NCBI GenBank assembly: GCA_030620115.1
Contig: JAUXFG010000072.1
Location: forward strand, 1 to 18,481
Direction: 5' to 3'
Origin: Candidatus Fermentibacterota bacterium
Lineage (GTDB): Bacteria > JAFGKV01
DNA length: 18,481 nt
Shown here piece by piece: positions 2,102-9,686 of the stretch (its first letter is position 1; each line of letters begins with the position of its first letter). The notes beneath the pieces were generated by a model that worked only from the letters and a program-made list of their open reading frames with translations, was not told where the DNA came from and did no database searches. Position numbers and translations under genes: made by a program.

Positions 2102-2184
2102 GAACGAGGAGGGGGAGACGTTGAGAACGCACGCTTTTCGGGCATCAGCGTTCAGCATTGTCTATCTCGCGGCGCCTCGAGGAT

Positions 2185-2189
2185 AGGAG
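2185..2189 (+). promoter_or_regulatory. Ribosome binding site that decides the LD-carboxypeptidase start
   Basis: AGGAG at 2185-2189 sits 7 nt before TTG 2197 and 10 nt before GTG 2200. It lies downstream of the longest possible start (TTG 2158), which has no comparable site. This argues for translation starting at 2197 or 2200. Confidence 0.55.
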
Positions 2190-2196
2190 CGGAATT

Positions 2197-3132
2197 TTGG
2201 TGCGCCCAGCGGCATTGAAAAAGGGGGACCGGGTGGCTCTTCTTTCTCTGGCGAGTCCTCCCAGATCTCAGGAACTGATCGCGTCATCGGTGGCGGCCGT
2301 TGGGCGGCTGGGGTACCATGTGGAGCTTGCGCCGCACGTCGCCCCCGGATCGACCTTTCTCGCCGGAAGCGATAGGGATCGCGCGTCTGATTTTCATTGG
2401 GCGGTTGCCCAACAGTCGATCCGCGGCATATTCTGTCTCCGTGGCGGATACGGTTCCATGCGGCTGCTTCCTCACGTAGACTGGGATCTCGTTGCGACCC
2501 ATCCCAAAGTCCTGGTTGGAATGTCCGATATCACTGCTCTCCAAGTGGCTCTTCTTGAACGGATCTCCCTGGTGACATTTGCCGGACCAATGCCTCTTCT
2601 CTCCGCCACCGGCATGTTCTCGCGCTACTCCGCAGAGAGATTGGTGGCCGCCGTAGGGGGTGATGATGGTCAAGGCCCCATTATCTGCCAGGGGCCGAAC
2701 GATCCCGAGCCGATAGTGATCGCTGCGGGGCGAGCACAAGGCAGGATTCTGGGAGGGAACCTCCAGACAGTAGTCTCCCTCATTGGCACTCCATACGAAC
2801 CGAAACTGGATGGTTCGATTCTGCTCCTGGAGGACGTGGGTGAGGCGCCTTATCGGATTGACAGGTTACTGACCCAGCTTCTATTTGCAGGCAGGCTGAG
2901 AGGCGTGAAAGGTGTCGCGCTGGGCCGCTTTGCCCGCTGCTATGAATCTTCTGAGGAAGAGATCATTGCCGTGGCGGCAGAACGATTGGAAAACATAGGC
3001 ATACCAGTCCTCTATGGGCTGGCGCTGGGGCATCAGGATGATGTGGCCACTTGGCCGCAAGGCTGTATGGCTGAGCTGGATTGTGGAGCCAGAGAGTTGA
3101 GAGTCTTGGAGCGAGGTGTGATGCCGCATTGA
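2197..3132 (+). CDS. LD-carboxypeptidase (peptidase family S66, LdcA/MccF type)
   Basis: About 311 residues, the usual length for cytoplasmic S66 serine peptidases, which remove the terminal D-amino acid from tetrapeptide muropeptides in peptidoglycan recycling; MccF relatives detoxify microcin C. Seen: an N-terminus of the form RPAALKKGDRVALLS, the substrate-site motif LRGGYGSMRLL, the nucleophile motif GMSDITAL (Ser), LEDVGEAPYRIDR with the catalytic Glu, and GLALGHQDD with the catalytic His. All three Ser-Glu-His elements are present. The frame can be extended to TTG 2158, but the ribosome binding site and family alignment favour TTG 2197 (GTG 2200 as alternative). The stop overlaps or nearly abuts the glycosidase gene, so the two are probably translationally coupled. 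MccF-type specificity cannot be excluded. Confidence 0.9.
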   Translation: MVRPAALKKGDRVALLSLASPPRSQELIASSVAAVGRLGYHVELAPHVAPGSTFLAGSDRDRASDFHWAVAQQSIRGIFCLRGGYGSMRLLPHVDWDLVATHPKVLVGMSDITALQVALLERISLVTFAGPMPLLSATGMFSRYSAERLVAAVGGDDGQGPIICQGPNDPEPIVIAAGRAQGRILGGNLQTVVSLIGTPYEPKLDGSILLLEDVGEAPYRIDRLLTQLLFAGRLRGVKGVALGRFARCYESSEEEIIAVAAERLENIGIPVLYGLALGHQDDVATWPQGCMAELDCGARELRVLERGVMPH

Positions 3133-3143
3133 GCGGATACCTC

Positions 3144-4559
3144 ATGCCGCAAGACCTCGGTCGGCATCTCGTGCCGATTCTTGATTTTCGGGATGAAGCG
3201 ACGGCCACCGGGTGGCAAGAAATCCAGTTGCTCATCGGGACATGTGGGCTTGGTGGCATCCTTCTCCGAGGGGGGAAGGAGGCGGACTGGCTGGCAATAC
3301 GCAGGACTGTCGATCAACTGCCCTCCCCGCCGCTGCTCATGGCGGATCTGGAGCAGGGGGCCGCCAGTCAGCTGCCCGAACATGCGTGGCTTCCCTCAGC
3401 GGCAGCCGTGGGCGCCACGGGAGATCCGGAGTTCGCATGGAGGATGGGTCAGCTCATCGGTCGCCAGGCCAAAGCATTGGGGCTCGACTTGATCCTGGCT
3501 CCCGTGGCGGATCTGTGTCTTTGCCTGGAGAATCCTATCATGGGTCCTCGCTGCTTCGGCTCACGTGCAGACCGGGTTGCCGACATGGTTGGGGCATTTG
3601 TGAAGGGCTGTGGCCGGGAGGGGGTCGGGACAGTAGTCAAGCATTTTCCGGGGCATGGCAGGGCTGGTGATGACAGCCATACGATTCTGCCCATGATCCA
3701 GTTGGAAAAAGATGTATGGCGAAGAACGGATCTTCTTCCTTTCGCTGCCGCAATCAAGGCAGGAACCAGGGGTGTCATGATTGGTCACCTCTGGATCTCA
3801 GGGTTGGATCCAGGCGAAACACGACCCGCGAGCCTTAGTCAACCAGTCATGAAACAGCTTTTGCGTGAGGAGTTGGGCTTTTCCGGTCTCATTATTACTG
3901 ATAGCTTGGATATGGTGCCTGTGAGCCCTGGTGATGTGCGTATTGCTGAAAAAATGATCAATGCAGGTGCGGATCTGGTGCTGGGTGTGAAGCTGGACGA
4001 ACCATCAGGCAGCGCCCCGAAATGGATCGGACTGCCGGAGATTGAAGTTCAGGCGCACGCTCCGGTAGCCACACTGGAGGATTCGGTGCATGTGTTGGCG
4101 CAGACCATCGCGAGATCATCGTTGGGGTGGTTTGGGGATCGACAACCTCGGTGGCGAATCGGTGAGAGCGTTCAGGCAGTGCTCGTGTGTGCTGACGGAA
4201 CGCGGCAGGCATGGGCGGAGGAATTTATCCGCGCGGTACAGGAATGTTCGCCTGGCGTTTGTGTGACAGAAGGGCTATTGGAGCAAGCGGTTGTCATGGA
4301 GAGCGAGGAGCTCATCATAGTGATTGGCCGTGCCTCAGGGAGGATAGAGGAGGAACGGGCCCATTCCGTGTTCGGAACGCTCCAGGCAGAGCGAAGAAAG
4401 GCGTTGGTCGTTCTATTGGGCGTGCCCAAACTCCTTCCCGCGGCTACAGTCCTGCCTGTCCTGGTGGGGGGCGATGCGATCTCTGAAACTCAACGGGCGG
4501 CGGTGGATATATTATGGGGGAAGTTGATCCCTTCCGGCAATCCGGATCTGGTATGCTAA
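3144..4559 (+). CDS. nagZ: NagZ-like beta-N-acetylglucosaminidase (glycoside hydrolase family 3)
   Basis: A 471-residue GH3 enzyme, likely cleaving GlcNAc from wall fragments. Counted from ATG 3144, KHFPGHG lies at 166-172, followed by the NagZ-specific Asp-His dyad in DDSH (D177, H179). The aspartate nucleophile is D253 in GLIITDSLDM. The usual DQEGG segment is altered to ADLEQGA (67-73), so the substrate pocket may differ from classical NagZ. The roughly 190 residues after the barrel form a second domain, as in two-domain Gram-positive NagZ proteins. No signal peptide is visible, so it is probably cytoplasmic. The frame extends upstream to 3081. TTG 3129, overlapping the preceding TGA, is an alternative start, and neither choice has a strong ribosome binding site, which suggests coupling to the LD-carboxypeptidase. 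Another family 3 hexosaminidase specificity is possible. Confidence 0.85.
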   Translation: MPQDLGRHLVPILDFRDEATATGWQEIQLLIGTCGLGGILLRGGKEADWLAIRRTVDQLPSPPLLMADLEQGAASQLPEHAWLPSAAAVGATGDPEFAWRMGQLIGRQAKALGLDLILAPVADLCLCLENPIMGPRCFGSRADRVADMVGAFVKGCGREGVGTVVKHFPGHGRAGDDSHTILPMIQLEKDVWRRTDLLPFAAAIKAGTRGVMIGHLWISGLDPGETRPASLSQPVMKQLLREELGFSGLIITDSLDMVPVSPGDVRIAEKMINAGADLVLGVKLDEPSGSAPKWIGLPEIEVQAHAPVATLEDSVHVLAQTIARSSLGWFGDRQPRWRIGESVQAVLVCADGTRQAWAEEFIRAVQECSPGVCVTEGLLEQAVVMESEELIIVIGRASGRIEEERAHSVFGTLQAERRKALVVLLGVPKLLPAATVLPVLVGGDAISETQRAAVDILWGKLIPSGNPDLVC

Positions 4560-4676
4560 CCGGACGATGGGTCATGATTGAGAGTCCGGAACGGTATATC
4601 GAGATCGAGGAAAGCGTCGATTCTGTTTGGTACGTCATCGCTGACACCTGCCACCCTTTGCAAGAGGAGGTACATC

Positions 4677-5537
4677 ATGCGGATCAGACGAGCAATTGCG
4701 GGAGCCTTCTATCGCGGCGACTGCCGGGAGCAGGTGAGGAAGTTCTTGGATGGTGATGATGTTCCCCCGCGCAACGAGCCGATTCCGGGAGCGGTGGTCC
4801 CTCACGCCGGGTGGGTGTACTCCGGGAGGGTTGCCGCGCAGGTGTGGGCCCGCGTGGCAGCTGCCGGGCCTCCAGAGACCGTGGTGATCCTTGGCGCCGT
4901 GCACCGCAGCTATTCGCCTGCCGGTGCGGCGGTCTGGGCGGATGGCGGATGGGAGACACCGGTGGGTATGGTTCCCATTGATGAGGAGCTGGCAAAGGAT
5001 ATGATTCAGGCATTGGGATCGCAGCTTGTCGACAATCCGTCCGCCCATGTGGCGGAGCATTCCATCGAAGTGCAACTTCCAATGGTCAGGCTTCTCCTTC
5101 CCGAGGCGTCCATAGTCCCGGTGGCTGTTCCTCCGGAGGAAGAATCCTGTGCTCTTGGTGTTGCCATGGGGAAGTTCCTAGCGGCATGCGGCAAGCCCGT
5201 GACAGTCGTATCTTCGACGGATCTGACACACTACGGTCCAGGCTATGGCTTGGCTCCCGCCGGCGTTGGTGAGCGTGCCGAGGCCTGGATGAAGGCCAAT
5301 GATCGCCGTTTTCTCGATCTCATGGAGCAGATGGCTTCTGACCGCATCATCGAGGAAGCCAGAATGCACCACAATGCCTGCGGAGCGGGAGCGGTGGCAG
5401 CCGCCATGGGAGCTGCCAGGGAGCTGGGAGCCACCCATGGGACAGTGACTGAATATACCACGAGTCATAGGGAATCTCCCGAGAGCCGAGTATTCAGCAT
5501 GGCGGTGGGCTATGCGGGGGTGTTATTTGTCAAGTAG
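4677..5537 (+). CDS. MEMO-family protein (AmmeMemoRadiSam system protein B)
   Basis: 286 residues. Motifs of the MEMO family are clear: VPHAGWVYSG (H43), GAVHRSY (H76), AHVAEHSIEVQLP (124-135), SSTDLTHYG (D182, H185) and HHNACGAGA (C235). These correspond to the metal-site histidines and the cysteine known from human MEMO1, so the active site looks intact. Family knowledge: MEMO proteins are metal-binding relatives of aromatic-ring-opening dioxygenases. In bacteria they often accompany an AMMECR1 protein and a radical SAM protein; neither is in this window. The start is fixed by AGGAGG at 4665-4670, 6 nt before the ATG; the longer frame from 4578 lacks family similarity. The biochemical role is unknown. 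Its position between nagZ and dapF suggests a link to the wall-recycling operon, which is inference. Confidence 0.88.
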   Translation: MRIRRAIAGAFYRGDCREQVRKFLDGDDVPPRNEPIPGAVVPHAGWVYSGRVAAQVWARVAAAGPPETVVILGAVHRSYSPAGAAVWADGGWETPVGMVPIDEELAKDMIQALGSQLVDNPSAHVAEHSIEVQLPMVRLLLPEASIVPVAVPPEEESCALGVAMGKFLAACGKPVTVVSSTDLTHYGPGYGLAPAGVGERAEAWMKANDRRFLDLMEQMASDRIIEEARMHHNACGAGAVAAAMGAARELGATHGTVTEYTTSHRESPESRVFSMAVGYAGVLFVK

Positions 5538-6363
5538 GTCAGCCCTTCCCGGAGAGCCATTTGCAAAGATCCAGGCCTTGGGTAACGATTTTATCTGGTT
5601 CCTGAAATATGTCGACGGGGAGCCGCCACGCCACCTCTTGGCAGACATCCCACTCCTGTGCCACAGGCATCGGGGTATTGGCAGCGACGGCGTGATATTC
5701 TGGGGCCCGGCCCGGGGAAATGTCTACCCGCTCTGGTTTTTTAATCGTGACGGGAGTGCGGCAGAGGTATGTGGAAACGGCCTGAGGGCCCTATGCGTGG
5801 CAGGGCGAGATCTTGATCTTGTTCGGCCAGGAGAAGTCTGGTTCGAAATCAGCGGTGAGCGCTTCCCCGTAGAAGCGCCCCAAGAGGGGAACATTGCTTC
5901 TGTCGGGTTAGGGATCCCTCACATCCCCAGGACCGGTTCCCTGTTCGATGATGTACGCGAAGAGCTTCGAGGTATGGATGGCGGAGGGGGGTTGATCTAT
6001 GTGCCTAATCCGCATATTGTGGTGTTCGAGGAAATGGCCAAGCCCGAGGGAGAACGGGAGAAGATCGCGGCCAAGTTATCTGCGCTGCTGCCGGAAGGAG
6101 CCAATGTGGGTTTTGTGTGCGCATGTGGGAAGCATAGATTGAACTTGGAAGTCTGGGAGCGGGGAGTGGGGCGGACTCTCGCCTGTGGCAGTGGTGCTGG
6201 CGCAGCCTGGGCTATTGCCATAGATCAAGGCCTCTTGGAGGGGGCTGGTACTGTTCACCAGCCCGGAGGGGATCTTCTTGTGGATCAGAGAGATGATGAA
6301 CGGCTCTGGATTTCCGGCGAGGCTTCATTGATATTCACCGGCTCGTTGCCATGGGCACGCTGA
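5512..6363 (+). CDS. dapF: Diaminopimelate epimerase
   Basis: Converts LL-diaminopimelate to the meso form for lysine and peptidoglycan synthesis. 283 residues, normal for DapF. Seen: FAKIQALGNDF (17-27), RHRGIGSDGVIF, FFNRDGSAAEVCGNGLR with catalytic Cys87, VPNPHIVVF, and ERGVGRTLACGSGAGAA with catalytic Cys225. Both cysteines of the two-base mechanism are present. The second motif reads CGSG where CGTG is usual. The ATG overlaps the end of the MEMO gene by about 26 nt; TTG 5527 just before the family core is an alternative. The overlap implies cotranscription and coupling. The gene indicates a DAP-type cell wall, which agrees with the recycling genes upstream. Confidence 0.93.
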   Translation: MRGCYLSSRSALPGEPFAKIQALGNDFIWFLKYVDGEPPRHLLADIPLLCHRHRGIGSDGVIFWGPARGNVYPLWFFNRDGSAAEVCGNGLRALCVAGRDLDLVRPGEVWFEISGERFPVEAPQEGNIASVGLGIPHIPRTGSLFDDVREELRGMDGGGGLIYVPNPHIVVFEEMAKPEGEREKIAAKLSALLPEGANVGFVCACGKHRLNLEVWERGVGRTLACGSGAGAAWAIAIDQGLLEGAGTVHQPGGDLLVDQRDDERLWISGEASLIFTGSLPWAR

Positions 6364-6513: not shown

Positions 6514-6567
6514 ATGAAAAACCGGGGTGAGGCCCGAATGACCAGGAATACAAGGCAAGAGTCATGA
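6514..6567 (+). CDS. Possible 17-residue leader ORF coupled to the kinase gene
   Basis: ATG 6514 opens MKNRGEARMTRNTRQES and its TGA overlaps the kinase ATG in the form ATGA at 6564-6567. A CAGGAA site lies a few bases ahead of it. It follows the promoter and leader hairpin. The arrangement is typical of translational coupling, but the ORF is so short that chance is a real possibility. No homology is claimed. Confidence 0.3.
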   Translation: MKNRGEARMTRNTRQES

Positions 6568-7760
6568 GAAACCATGGAGATGATATGGACTTGGGTATGG
6601 GTGAGCCGAAGCATTCTCTGCTGGTGGTTCTCGGGCTCGAGGCCGCGGAACATGCACTCATCGCCGATGTGGCTGAAAATTGCGAGATTCGCCACGTTAA
6701 TAGCATCCTGCAATTGCGCGAACTGATCAAACAAGAACCCATTGCCGCGGTGCTCACGGAGATCTGGGTCCGGGATGGGCATGTCCTTGAAGTGCATGAT
6801 CTTCTCAAAGAAATGAGCCCCTCAACCTGTCTTGTTATTGCCGCATCATCCTTGGATGAGGACATGGTTGATCAGGTAAGGCGATCAGGCATGCCTTTGG
6901 TTTTGCAGCGGCCTATCCGCAAGATGGAGTTCGCCGCCGCAATAGCACTGGTGATCGGGTTTTGCCACGCTCGGAAGGAACTGCGTAGTCTTCAAGCAGT
7001 GACTCAACAGATGACAACTGATATCGAGGAAGCGGCACGACTCAAGTCGGAGTTCCTCTCGCTCATCAGCCATGAATTGAGGACCCCCTTGACCGAGGTG
7101 ATAGGATACGCCGAACTATTGAAGGAAGGGGCCTACGCCAACCTTCATGAATATCACCAAGAATATGTGGATAGCATACTGCGCAGCTCCAACCAGCTCA
7201 GCTCTCTGATTGATGACCTTATGACCTTGTCGAAGGCCGAAGCGCACGCGCTCGAGCCAAAGACCAGCACCTTTGCGGTCTCGCGGCTTGTGGAAGGCAA
7301 AGTGGCCACCCTTATCAGAGAGGCAAGGACCCAAGGTCTCAAGACCGAAATCCGTATTGATCCGGCTGCCGGCGTCATTGTTGCTGACCATGAAATGCTG
7401 AGCAAAGTCCTCCGCGCGCTCATTTCCAACGCCATCAAGTTCACTCCACAAGGCGGCACGCTCGGGATCGAGATCAGCAACGCTGATTCCGCTGTTCTCT
7501 TCAAGGTCTGGGACACCGGCAAAGGCATCGCACAGGAGAGGGTTCGAGATATCTTCAGAGCCTTCCGGCAGGAAGATAGCTCCGACCGCCGCCAGTATGG
7601 CGGGCTCGGGCTCGGGCTCTCAATCGTGAAGCATCTTGTTGCCTTGCATGGCGGCAATGTCCGAGTGACAAGCAGAGCCGATCAAGGAACCGTATTCAGC
7701 TTTGTGATCCCGCGTCGTGGTGTGGCGAAAGGATCAAATGACCAGGCAAGGAATGGCTGA
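6564..7760 (+). CDS. Histidine kinase with degenerate receiver-like N-terminal domain
   Basis: 398 residues, no transmembrane segment, so a soluble kinase. Residues 16-130 look like a receiver fold that has lost its chemistry: the acidic pair is absent (VVLGLE), the phospho-acceptor position is Glu (E66 in LTEIW), and the conserved Lys-Pro reads Arg-Pro (R116). Then come a HisKA helix pair with H170 in SHELRTPL, an N box with N289 in SNAIKFTP, a G1 box DTGKGI (317-322) and a G2 box GLGLGLSIV (348-356). All kinase motifs are intact. The gene is followed after 3 bp by the REC-DnaA regulator, its likely partner. The N-terminus probably senses through protein contact rather than phosphorylation. 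The start at 6564 has a moderate AAGG/AAGAG upstream region and overlaps the short leader ORF. Confidence 0.9.
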   Translation: MRNHGDDMDLGMGEPKHSLLVVLGLEAAEHALIADVAENCEIRHVNSILQLRELIKQEPIAAVLTEIWVRDGHVLEVHDLLKEMSPSTCLVIAASSLDEDMVDQVRRSGMPLVLQRPIRKMEFAAAIALVIGFCHARKELRSLQAVTQQMTTDIEEAARLKSEFLSLISHELRTPLTEVIGYAELLKEGAYANLHEYHQEYVDSILRSSNQLSSLIDDLMTLSKAEAHALEPKTSTFAVSRLVEGKVATLIREARTQGLKTEIRIDPAAGVIVADHEMLSKVLRALISNAIKFTPQGGTLGIEISNADSAVLFKVWDTGKGIAQERVRDIFRAFRQEDSSDRRQYGGLGLGLSIVKHLVALHGGNVRVTSRADQGTVFSFVIPRRGVAKGSNDQARNG

Positions 7761-7763
7761 GCC

Positions 7764-9686
7764 ATGAGCAAAAGCCGCGTTCTGATTGTCGATGACGATC
7801 CCCTCCTATTGAAACTCGTGCAGACCACGTTGGTCAGGGGCGGATATGAGGTAATTTGCGCCAAGGATGGCCAGGAAGGATTCGAGGCCGCCCGAGGCGA
7901 GCATCCTGATCTGATAGTCACCGACATCATGATGCCCATAGTCGACGGCTTTGAGCTCGCGCGTCGAATTCGGTCAGATCATATGCTCACCAACACGCCC
8001 CTGATCATGCTCACCGCCAAGGGAGAAGAGGAGGATCGGATAAAGGGGCTGGAGCTGGGCGCAGACGACTATATGACCAAGCCATTCAGTCCCCGAGAGC
8101 TCCTGGCAAGGGTTGGCGTGCAAGTGCGACGGCGAAGTCGCGCGATGACCCAAACCACACCGGTCGCCGGGGGTCCATTCGCGGGAGAAGGTTTCGAGCA
8201 TCTCGCCAGATTTCGATTCGACGACTTTGTCGTTGGCGCGGGAAATCAGGAGGCGTACGAAGCGGCGATGACGGCGGCTCATAATCCTGGAATGCGCTTC
8301 AATCCCCTATTTATTTTTGGCGGTCCGGGTATTGGGAAGACCCATCTCATCTGCGCGTTGGCCAACGAAGCCTTCGCCGTGAGTTACCGTATGTGGGCGC
8401 TCTATCTCACGTCTGAAGCTTTCAGCCAACAAGTACTTGATGCATTTCAGAATCGAGAGATACGCGAACTCACGGACAAGTACCTGTTGGCCAACATATT
8501 CATGATTGATGATATCCAATTTCTTGCCATCTCTCAGAGTCTCCAGAGTGTAGCGCGTGATATCCTCTCGCAGCTCTACGATGCAGGGAAGCAGATTGTC
8601 ATATCCAGTGACCGAAGCCCTGGTGAACTCGCCACAATCTCGGCGGGCATCAGCGCGGAACTCGCCTTTGGGCGGATCGTTCAGATCATCCCCCCTGGGG
8701 CCGCTCTTCGAGCAGAGATCTTGAAAGTCAAGGCCCGGCGGCGGAACTGGCCCCTTGACGATTCCTTGATCGAGTATCTCGCCGAAGTGTTGGCTACGGA
8801 CATACGAAGCCTCGAGGGTGTGGCGGCAAGACTCGTGGCAATGAAAACCCTGGGAGGTATTACTCCTGACAGAGATGCGGTGGATCGAATGGTTCGGGAG
8901 ATCTCGGACACAGACACCGAGGGACCTGCGCCGGATTCAGCGCGCGCAGAATGGGAAGAGCCAGAAGCGAAGAGAACTACTGCGGATTTCTCCCTCTCCG
9001 AAACTCGGTTCTCGAAAGTCGGGGTCGGGGATACTCCCACTCGTATGGTGGAAGCCGACGCCGCGAGGCCCATAGGGCTGGAAACGCCGCAGTCACAGGA
9101 AGGGCGGCTCCCCGATCCCTTAGTCATGGAGTTCTCGAAGTCGGTCCTATTGCGACGGATTCTTGGCCAACCAGACGAGATCGCTTCGACTATTCCCAAA
9201 GGAGATGCACGGCCGATCGTGGTCCTCGGTACGTCGAGTGCGCTGATCATGGATACGGTTGAAGCCCTTGTGGGGAAAAGGGAGCATGCACCCAAGCTCC
9301 CCGAGGGAGAGACGTGGGCATATATGGTCCACGTGCAAGGTGAGGATCCTCAATGGGCCATCCTTGGCGCCGGTGCGTGGAACTCCGGGGACGACCTGGC
9401 GGGCGCTATTGCGGAACGGTATGTGCCCGTGTTTCTGGTGGTGTTGGACAGCATGAGTCCGAAAATCGTAGAAGCAAGAAAGCTCATCTCCTCTGTGCCC
9501 GAAGATGCGGTCATGATGGTGGTGATCTTGGTGAGTTCTGCCGAAGACCAGTTGGAAGATGCACGCAGGACTTTATCCAAGAGCCTCAAGCGGCTGTTCC
9601 GGGTACCCGATGGTGTACCACTCGCCATCAATGGGGGCATAACCACACACGACGCGCGCTCGTGGATTAAACGAGCGCTGGAATAA
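7764..9686 (+). CDS. Response regulator fused to a DnaA-type AAA+ ATPase and an unassigned C-terminal domain
   Basis: 640 residues. Residues 4-122 form a canonical receiver: acidic residues D10-D12, phospho-acceptor D54 (VTDIMMP), T84 and K106 (TKPF). Residues 148-365 match DnaA domain III: RFRFDDFVVGAGN, Walker A GGPGIGKTH (186-194), YLTSEAF, Walker B FMIDDIQFLA (D249, D250), sensor I VISSDR (279-284) and sensor II with R348 in DIRSLEG. DnaA domain I and the DNA-binding domain IV are absent. The box VII arginine finger (SRF in DnaA) reads AEL, placing E299 at the arginine position. A polar linker (380-450) leads to residues 480-640, an alpha/beta domain I cannot assign; its strand pattern and FLVVLDSMSP resemble a small GTPase with lost G motifs. 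Inference: a phosphorylation-controlled AAA+ protein acting by protein contacts, perhaps Hda-like, rather than a transcription factor. The kinase gene lies 3 bp upstream. Confidence 0.9.
   Translation: MSKSRVLIVDDDPLLLKLVQTTLVRGGYEVICAKDGQEGFEAARGEHPDLIVTDIMMPIVDGFELARRIRSDHMLTNTPLIMLTAKGEEEDRIKGLELGADDYMTKPFSPRELLARVGVQVRRRSRAMTQTTPVAGGPFAGEGFEHLARFRFDDFVVGAGNQEAYEAAMTAAHNPGMRFNPLFIFGGPGIGKTHLICALANEAFAVSYRMWALYLTSEAFSQQVLDAFQNREIRELTDKYLLANIFMIDDIQFLAISQSLQSVARDILSQLYDAGKQIVISSDRSPGELATISAGISAELAFGRIVQIIPPGAALRAEILKVKARRRNWPLDDSLIEYLAEVLATDIRSLEGVAARLVAMKTLGGITPDRDAVDRMVREISDTDTEGPAPDSARAEWEEPEAKRTTADFSLSETRFSKVGVGDTPTRMVEADAARPIGLETPQSQEGRLPDPLVMEFSKSVLLRRILGQPDEIASTIPKGDARPIVVLGTSSALIMDTVEALVGKREHAPKLPEGETWAYMVHVQGEDPQWAILGAGAWNSGDDLAGAIAERYVPVFLVVLDSMSPKIVEARKLISSVPEDAVMMVVILVSSAEDQLEDARRTLSKSLKRLFRVPDGVPLAINGGITTHDARSWIKRALE

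Follow-up and report, generated by a model that had tools for sequence, protein, structure and literature searches.

The open reading frame at positions 7764-9686 of the window (the whole stretch of 18,481 nucleotides analysed here, contig JAUXFG010000072.1 of a Candidatus Fermentibacterota bacterium, from a little-studied lineage) encodes a response regulator whose output derives from DnaA and whose tail is a predicted pseudo-GTPase. It belongs to a real family that is specific to this lineage and present in several copies per genome. We did not find this output described: receiver-DnaA and MshEN-DnaA proteins are both missing from the literature covered, outside of which lie most subscription papers including major response-regulator censuses, and within that scope we, like the initial annotation, know of no described system with this architecture. 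With a little less than even confidence we see in the protein a phosphorylation-switched, ATP-binding scaffold, built from a repurposed DnaA AAA+ domain and a pseudo-GTPase, with pilus or envelope machinery as its likeliest place of action. The family predicts a new response-regulator output and provides naturally occurring DnaA-type AAA+ proteins that lack the arginine finger. Such genes should not be annotated as replication initiators.

A three-part response regulator

The initial annotation described a receiver with the canonical residues D54, T84 and K106, fused to DnaA domain III with Walker A, Walker B, sensor I and sensor II intact and without DnaA domains I and IV. Reading frame, Pfam and TIGR00362 matches bear out the fusion (Table 1), and comparison with E. 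coli PhoB finds D10, D11, D54, T84 and K106 all present, i.e. the acidic pocket, phosphoryl-acceptor aspartate, Thr/Ser and lysine of a response regulator. Alignment and motif check agree on the Walker and sensor motifs, which together with the PF00308 match place the second domain in the DnaA-type AAA+ superfamily. Neither DnaA domain I nor domain IV was matched in the Pfam scan of the 7764-9686 protein; the same library matched Bac_DnaA_C in two other proteins and is thus able to detect domain IV. The description falls short in three respects. The receiver is not joined “directly” to the AAA+ domain, as a stretch of about 25 residues of low model confidence bridges the two, and both the third domain and the loss of the box VII arginines had been missed. 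The arrangement of the domains is not read from the whole-protein model, whose pTM is 0.36.

Table 1. Features of the kinase-regulator pair in window coordinates (match values in brackets).
Feature	Position	Strand	Basis
Cytosolic histidine kinase, 398 aa; HisKA 161-227, HATPase 275-384	6564..7760	+	Pfam (HisKA 2.6e-20, HATPase_c 7.2e-27)
Three-domain response regulator (receiver, DnaA-type AAA+, predicted pseudo-GTPase), 640 aa	7764..9686	+	ORF, Pfam, TIGRFAM, paralogue alignment, models
Receiver domain, PhoB/OmpR-like, residues 6-117	7779..8114	+	Pfam Response_reg (residues 6-117, 7.9e-31), TIGR02154 PhoB (6.5e-40), residue check against E. coli PhoB
DnaA-type AAA+ domain, residues 149-385	8208..8918	+	PF00308 Bac_DnaA (residues 149-305, 2.3e-41), TIGR00362 DnaA (up to residue 384, 8.6e-62), solved DnaA structure 8bv3 (1.1e-39)
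Walker A GGPGIGKTH, residues 186-194	8319..8345	+	alignment, motif check
Walker B FMIDD, residues 246-250	8499..8513	+	alignment, motif check
Former box VII: E. coli R281 to G295, arginine finger R285 to E299	8646..8660	+	alignment
Sensor II arginine R348 (E. coli R334), retained	8805..8807	+	alignment, motif check
Disordered variable linker, residues 382-463	8907..9152	+	pLDDT < 50, alignment gaps
C-terminal domain, predicted pseudo-GTPase, residues ~451-640	9114..9683	+	model, EngB/YsxC fold match, motif check in 12 paralogues

The fusion is real and its architecture firm. An assembly join or frameshift, one of the two refutations named in the initial annotation, might be suspected in a source assembly broken into 296 contigs; it is excluded because the same continuous three-part layout recurs at 12 loci in three separate assemblies, 11 of them further full-length homologues, which leaves an artefact next to no probability.

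The proposed search for the domain architecture and its taxonomic spread gave 18 receiver-DnaA genes in three genomes of the phylum, 12 of them with the third domain; each genome carries four full proteins and two consisting of receiver and DnaA domain only. A scan of 383 other bacterial genomes from more than 250 families turned up no such gene (E <= 1e-44, with the top four candidates scored in each genome and the three positive genomes clearly detected). PF00308 domains number 12 in the source genome and 13 and 9 in the other two genomes of the phylum, including some weak matches; elsewhere a genome usually has one DnaA-type domain and at most five (E <= 1e-20). Five genomes from the phyla of two other DnaA-expanded genomes yielded no receiver-DnaA protein. 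Relatives of the C-terminal domain turned up in two assemblies, labelled Candidatus Eisenbacteria and Candidatus Fermentibacteria, in a non-exhaustive scan of the genome collection with a single peptide pattern.

The C-terminal domain is a conserved unit of about 190 residues behind the disordered linker. Pfam and NCBIfam scans of this domain alone and in all 12 members gave nothing credible, and among solved structures a profile search matched the GTPase Der weakly (E 0.013), a hit that the fold search later backed. The AlphaFold model from seven sequences (pLDDT 78.9, pTM 0.80) has the strand-helix order of a Ras-like GTPase; its top Foldseek match is EngB (E 1e-5), and VIA alignment ranks YsxC first (Z 13.2 over 174 residues) and Arf proteins next (near 11). 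The fold of small Ras-like and EngB GTPases is thus predicted to be shared, but their sequence motifs are not: the P-loop GxxxxGK[ST] is absent in 12 of 12 paralogues and NKxD stands at the expected place in none of them, the one NKxD-like string (in L020) lying off the beta5 position. With the fold predicted and both motifs missing, the domain is best described as a pseudo-GTPase. A MglA-type GTPase, the first guess, went unconfirmed; the best folds were EngB/YsxC and Arf, and MglA was absent among the matches listed.

The ATP site and chromosome replication

DnaA is the textbook replication initiator, and Hda stimulates hydrolysis of DnaA-ATP with the loaded clamp. The phosphorylated receiver could conceivably control an Hda-like DnaA partner that alters the ATP state of DnaA or its loading at the origin, much as the initial annotation had proposed. 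The AAA+ domain is clearly of DnaA type, sharing fold, Walker A/B and both sensors with DnaA domain III; it comes without the DNA-binding domain IV, as in Hda, and it retains the lid together with the sensor II arginine. In E. coli DnaA numbering, K178, D235, D236, D269 and R334 are kept in 17 of 17 aligned receiver-DnaA proteins, so that the domain can plausibly bind ATP.

What DnaA and Hda have and the 7764-9686 protein lacks weighs more heavily. R281 is lost in all 17 aligned proteins and the arginine finger R285 in 14 (three paralogues still carry arginine there), whereas R285 is present in E. coli Hda and in every housekeeping DnaA of the alignment set. With glutamate at this position, the AAA+ domain, as judged from the alignment, cannot donate an arginine finger to a neighbour. 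The motif check also found no N-terminal clamp-binding motif of the Q-L-x-L-P-L type with which E. coli Hda begins (...QLSLPL). The loss of the finger and the absence of the clamp motif argue against an Hda-like role; the Bac_DnaA_C helix-turn-helix of a replication initiator is missing as well, and the protein has a receiver and a predicted pseudo-GTPase attached. Six paralogues per genome, with different adjacent kinases or none, would be a poor fit for a single regulator, and the trees described below reject a grouping with housekeeping DnaA. A replication role, for which the arginine loss, the missing clamp motif and the nearest relatives (MshEN-DnaA proteins of a pilus operon) leave no support, is therefore disfavoured, and we consider it improbable.

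Two further comparisons concern the AAA+ segment. NtrC-type regulators have the receiver-AAA+ layout in common with the 7764-9686 protein, which differs in having no Sigma54_activat match (Pfam; a true NtrC-type protein of the same genome does match) and no Fis-type DNA-binding domain. Pfam also matches IstB_IS21 weakly across this segment, which hints at a DNA-handling adaptor akin to the IstB/DnaC helicase loaders or at a regulator binding single-stranded DNA; DnaA models score far higher there, no transposase or helicase was seen among the neighbours and no DNA-binding domain was found, which makes such a function very improbable.

Descent of the AAA+ domain and its pilus-operon relatives

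In quick trees of DnaA-type AAA+ domains all receiver-DnaA proteins form one clade (SH-aLRT 95-96), which is joined to the MshEN-DnaA proteins of the same phylum (SH-aLRT 94-96) outside the housekeeping DnaAs. AU tests rejected a grouping of receiver-DnaA with the phylum's own housekeeping DnaA (p 0.0015) and, less strongly, with all housekeeping DnaAs (p 0.027), both p values being somewhat optimistic since the groups were defined with a first tree already at hand.

The MshEN-DnaA proteins are the closest AAA+ relatives and likewise fuse a signal-input domain to a DnaA AAA+ module. They differ in that the input is MshEN, not a receiver, that most keep the box VII arginines, and that the pseudo-GTPase is lacking. 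MshEN domains serve pilus and secretion ATPases as c-di-GMP receptors (PMC5013675); by eye, the c-di-GMP-binding motif is only partly kept in the MshEN-DnaA proteins. In the phylum, several MshEN-DnaA genes lie inside a complete-looking type IV pilus operon (L024:4309-15923 (G000:C14), with L129), which encodes a pilin-like protein, a prepilin peptidase, a TonB-like protein, PilB, two PilT-type ATPases and PilC, together with a PilS-like kinase and an NtrC-type PilR-like regulator. In other phyla MshEN-DnaA genes stand directly beside PilB (L096:4286-7339 (G173) and L097:3381-7545 (G279)). One MshEN-DnaA protein of the L024 operon measures 1993 aa and carries DnaA domains at its two ends, separated by a long, repetitive, helical-looking middle, and the order of the operon's DnaA-type genes is repeated in G001 (L032).

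With 9-13 DnaA-type domains per genome, most of them on signal-receiving domains and some in pilus operons, the phylum suggests a second life of the DnaA fold as a signalling or assembly ATPase. Because the AAA+ domain shares descent with pilus-operon MshEN-DnaA proteins, pilus or envelope machinery is the likeliest partner of the receiver-DnaA proteins. The link to pili, drawn solely from the descent of the AAA+ domain, is a putative one.

Kinase, gene neighbourhood and proposed mode of action

The initial annotation had also placed a kinase next to the regulator. The kinase gene indeed ends 3 bases upstream, and two related genomes show the pair in synteny (three genomes in all), with the kinase 52% identical. 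No clear membrane helix was found in the kinase, which has no sufficiently hydrophobic 19-residue window. Its N-terminal ~130 residues (window 6564-6980), without a Pfam match, resemble by eye a receiver lacking the phospho-aspartate. Peptidoglycan-recycling-like genes (LD-carboxypeptidase S66, GH3 hydrolase, DapF) lie near the pair at window 2158-6363 and are conserved in relatives.

No pilus gene adjoins receiver-DnaA at any of the 17 loci examined, among the neighbours scanned, and the present pair sits among peptidoglycan-recycling genes; cell-wall or general signalling is for these reasons a strong rival to a pilus role. The receiver-DnaA proteins might be general cytosolic signalling scaffolds unrelated to pili, expanded as outputs for many kinases, with this copy reporting on the cell wall because of the genes it is placed with. 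In all three genomes the syntenic pair is accompanied by LD-carboxypeptidase and/or GH3 hydrolase genes plus DapF, and other copies stand beside a hybrid kinase-Hpt, beside a cNMP-binding kinase, or alone. This account, which we regard as quite possible though somewhat doubtful, leaves the descent shared with pilus-operon MshEN-DnaA unexplained, and the synteny may merely reflect slow rearrangement. The hybrid kinase at L030:6668-9925 (1085 aa, with PAS, two receivers and Hpt) adjoins a paralogous receiver-DnaA gene, which suggests a phosphorelay input to that paralogue.

For the favored scaffold at pilus or envelope machinery we propose the following working. The adjacent kinase would phosphorylate D54, as synteny and the intact residues indicate; the complete set of phosphoryl-acceptor residues is present in 15 of 17 receiver-DnaA proteins. 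(Two orthologous paralogues, L023:3932-5452 and L038:5271-6785, have dead receivers that lost phospho-aspartate, acidic pocket and lysine.) The PhoB-like receiver would then pair through its alpha4-beta5-alpha5 face, whose charged positions drive pairing in PhoB/OmpR proteins and are mostly kept here. Pairing would bring together or expose the AAA+ domain, which, because the ATP site is kept and the arginine finger lost, may act as an ATP-dependent assembly switch, cap or partner and not as a self-stimulating, DnaA-like filament, possibly paired with finger-bearing MshEN-DnaA proteins. The pseudo-GTPase may finally serve as a protein-binding platform that docks a target.

In its working such a protein would be unlike DnaA or Hda, and TadZ/CpaE would be its closest analogue. 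TadZ/CpaE joins a receiver to a ParA-type ATPase and sits around the Tad pilus motor, so that there, too, a receiver and an ATPase with DNA-working relatives serve a pilus machine (PMC13170226). The likeness is an analogy only: TadZ/CpaE has a ParA/MinD-type ATPase, an atypical receiver and the Tad pilus, whereas the 7764-9686 protein has a DnaA-type AAA+ domain, a canonical receiver and a putative pilus link. In a broader version the DnaA AAA+ fold of the phylum would be a general signal output for the type IV pilus. Receiver-DnaA proteins, with phosphorylation as input and an ATP site lacking the finger, would form mixed assemblies with MshEN-DnaA proteins, which have a c-di-GMP-type input and bear the finger; these assemblies would position or gate the pilus motors, and the pseudo-GTPases would provide docking sites. 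This version appears to us unlikely, if worth stating.

The idea of a signalling or assembly role is open to testing in other bacteria as well, since MshEN-DnaA and tandem DnaA proteins also occur in other phyla. Tandem DnaA-DnaA proteins of ~600-820 aa occur at L088, L089, L092, L093, L094 and L095; in the four loci with neighbours scanned their genes lie near DUF4388 (PATAN-type) genes, mostly with TPRs. Much longer proteins that carry DnaA-type domains at one end or at both are encoded in unrelated genomes at L090:7512-12752 (1746 aa) and L091:9958-16356 (2132 aa).
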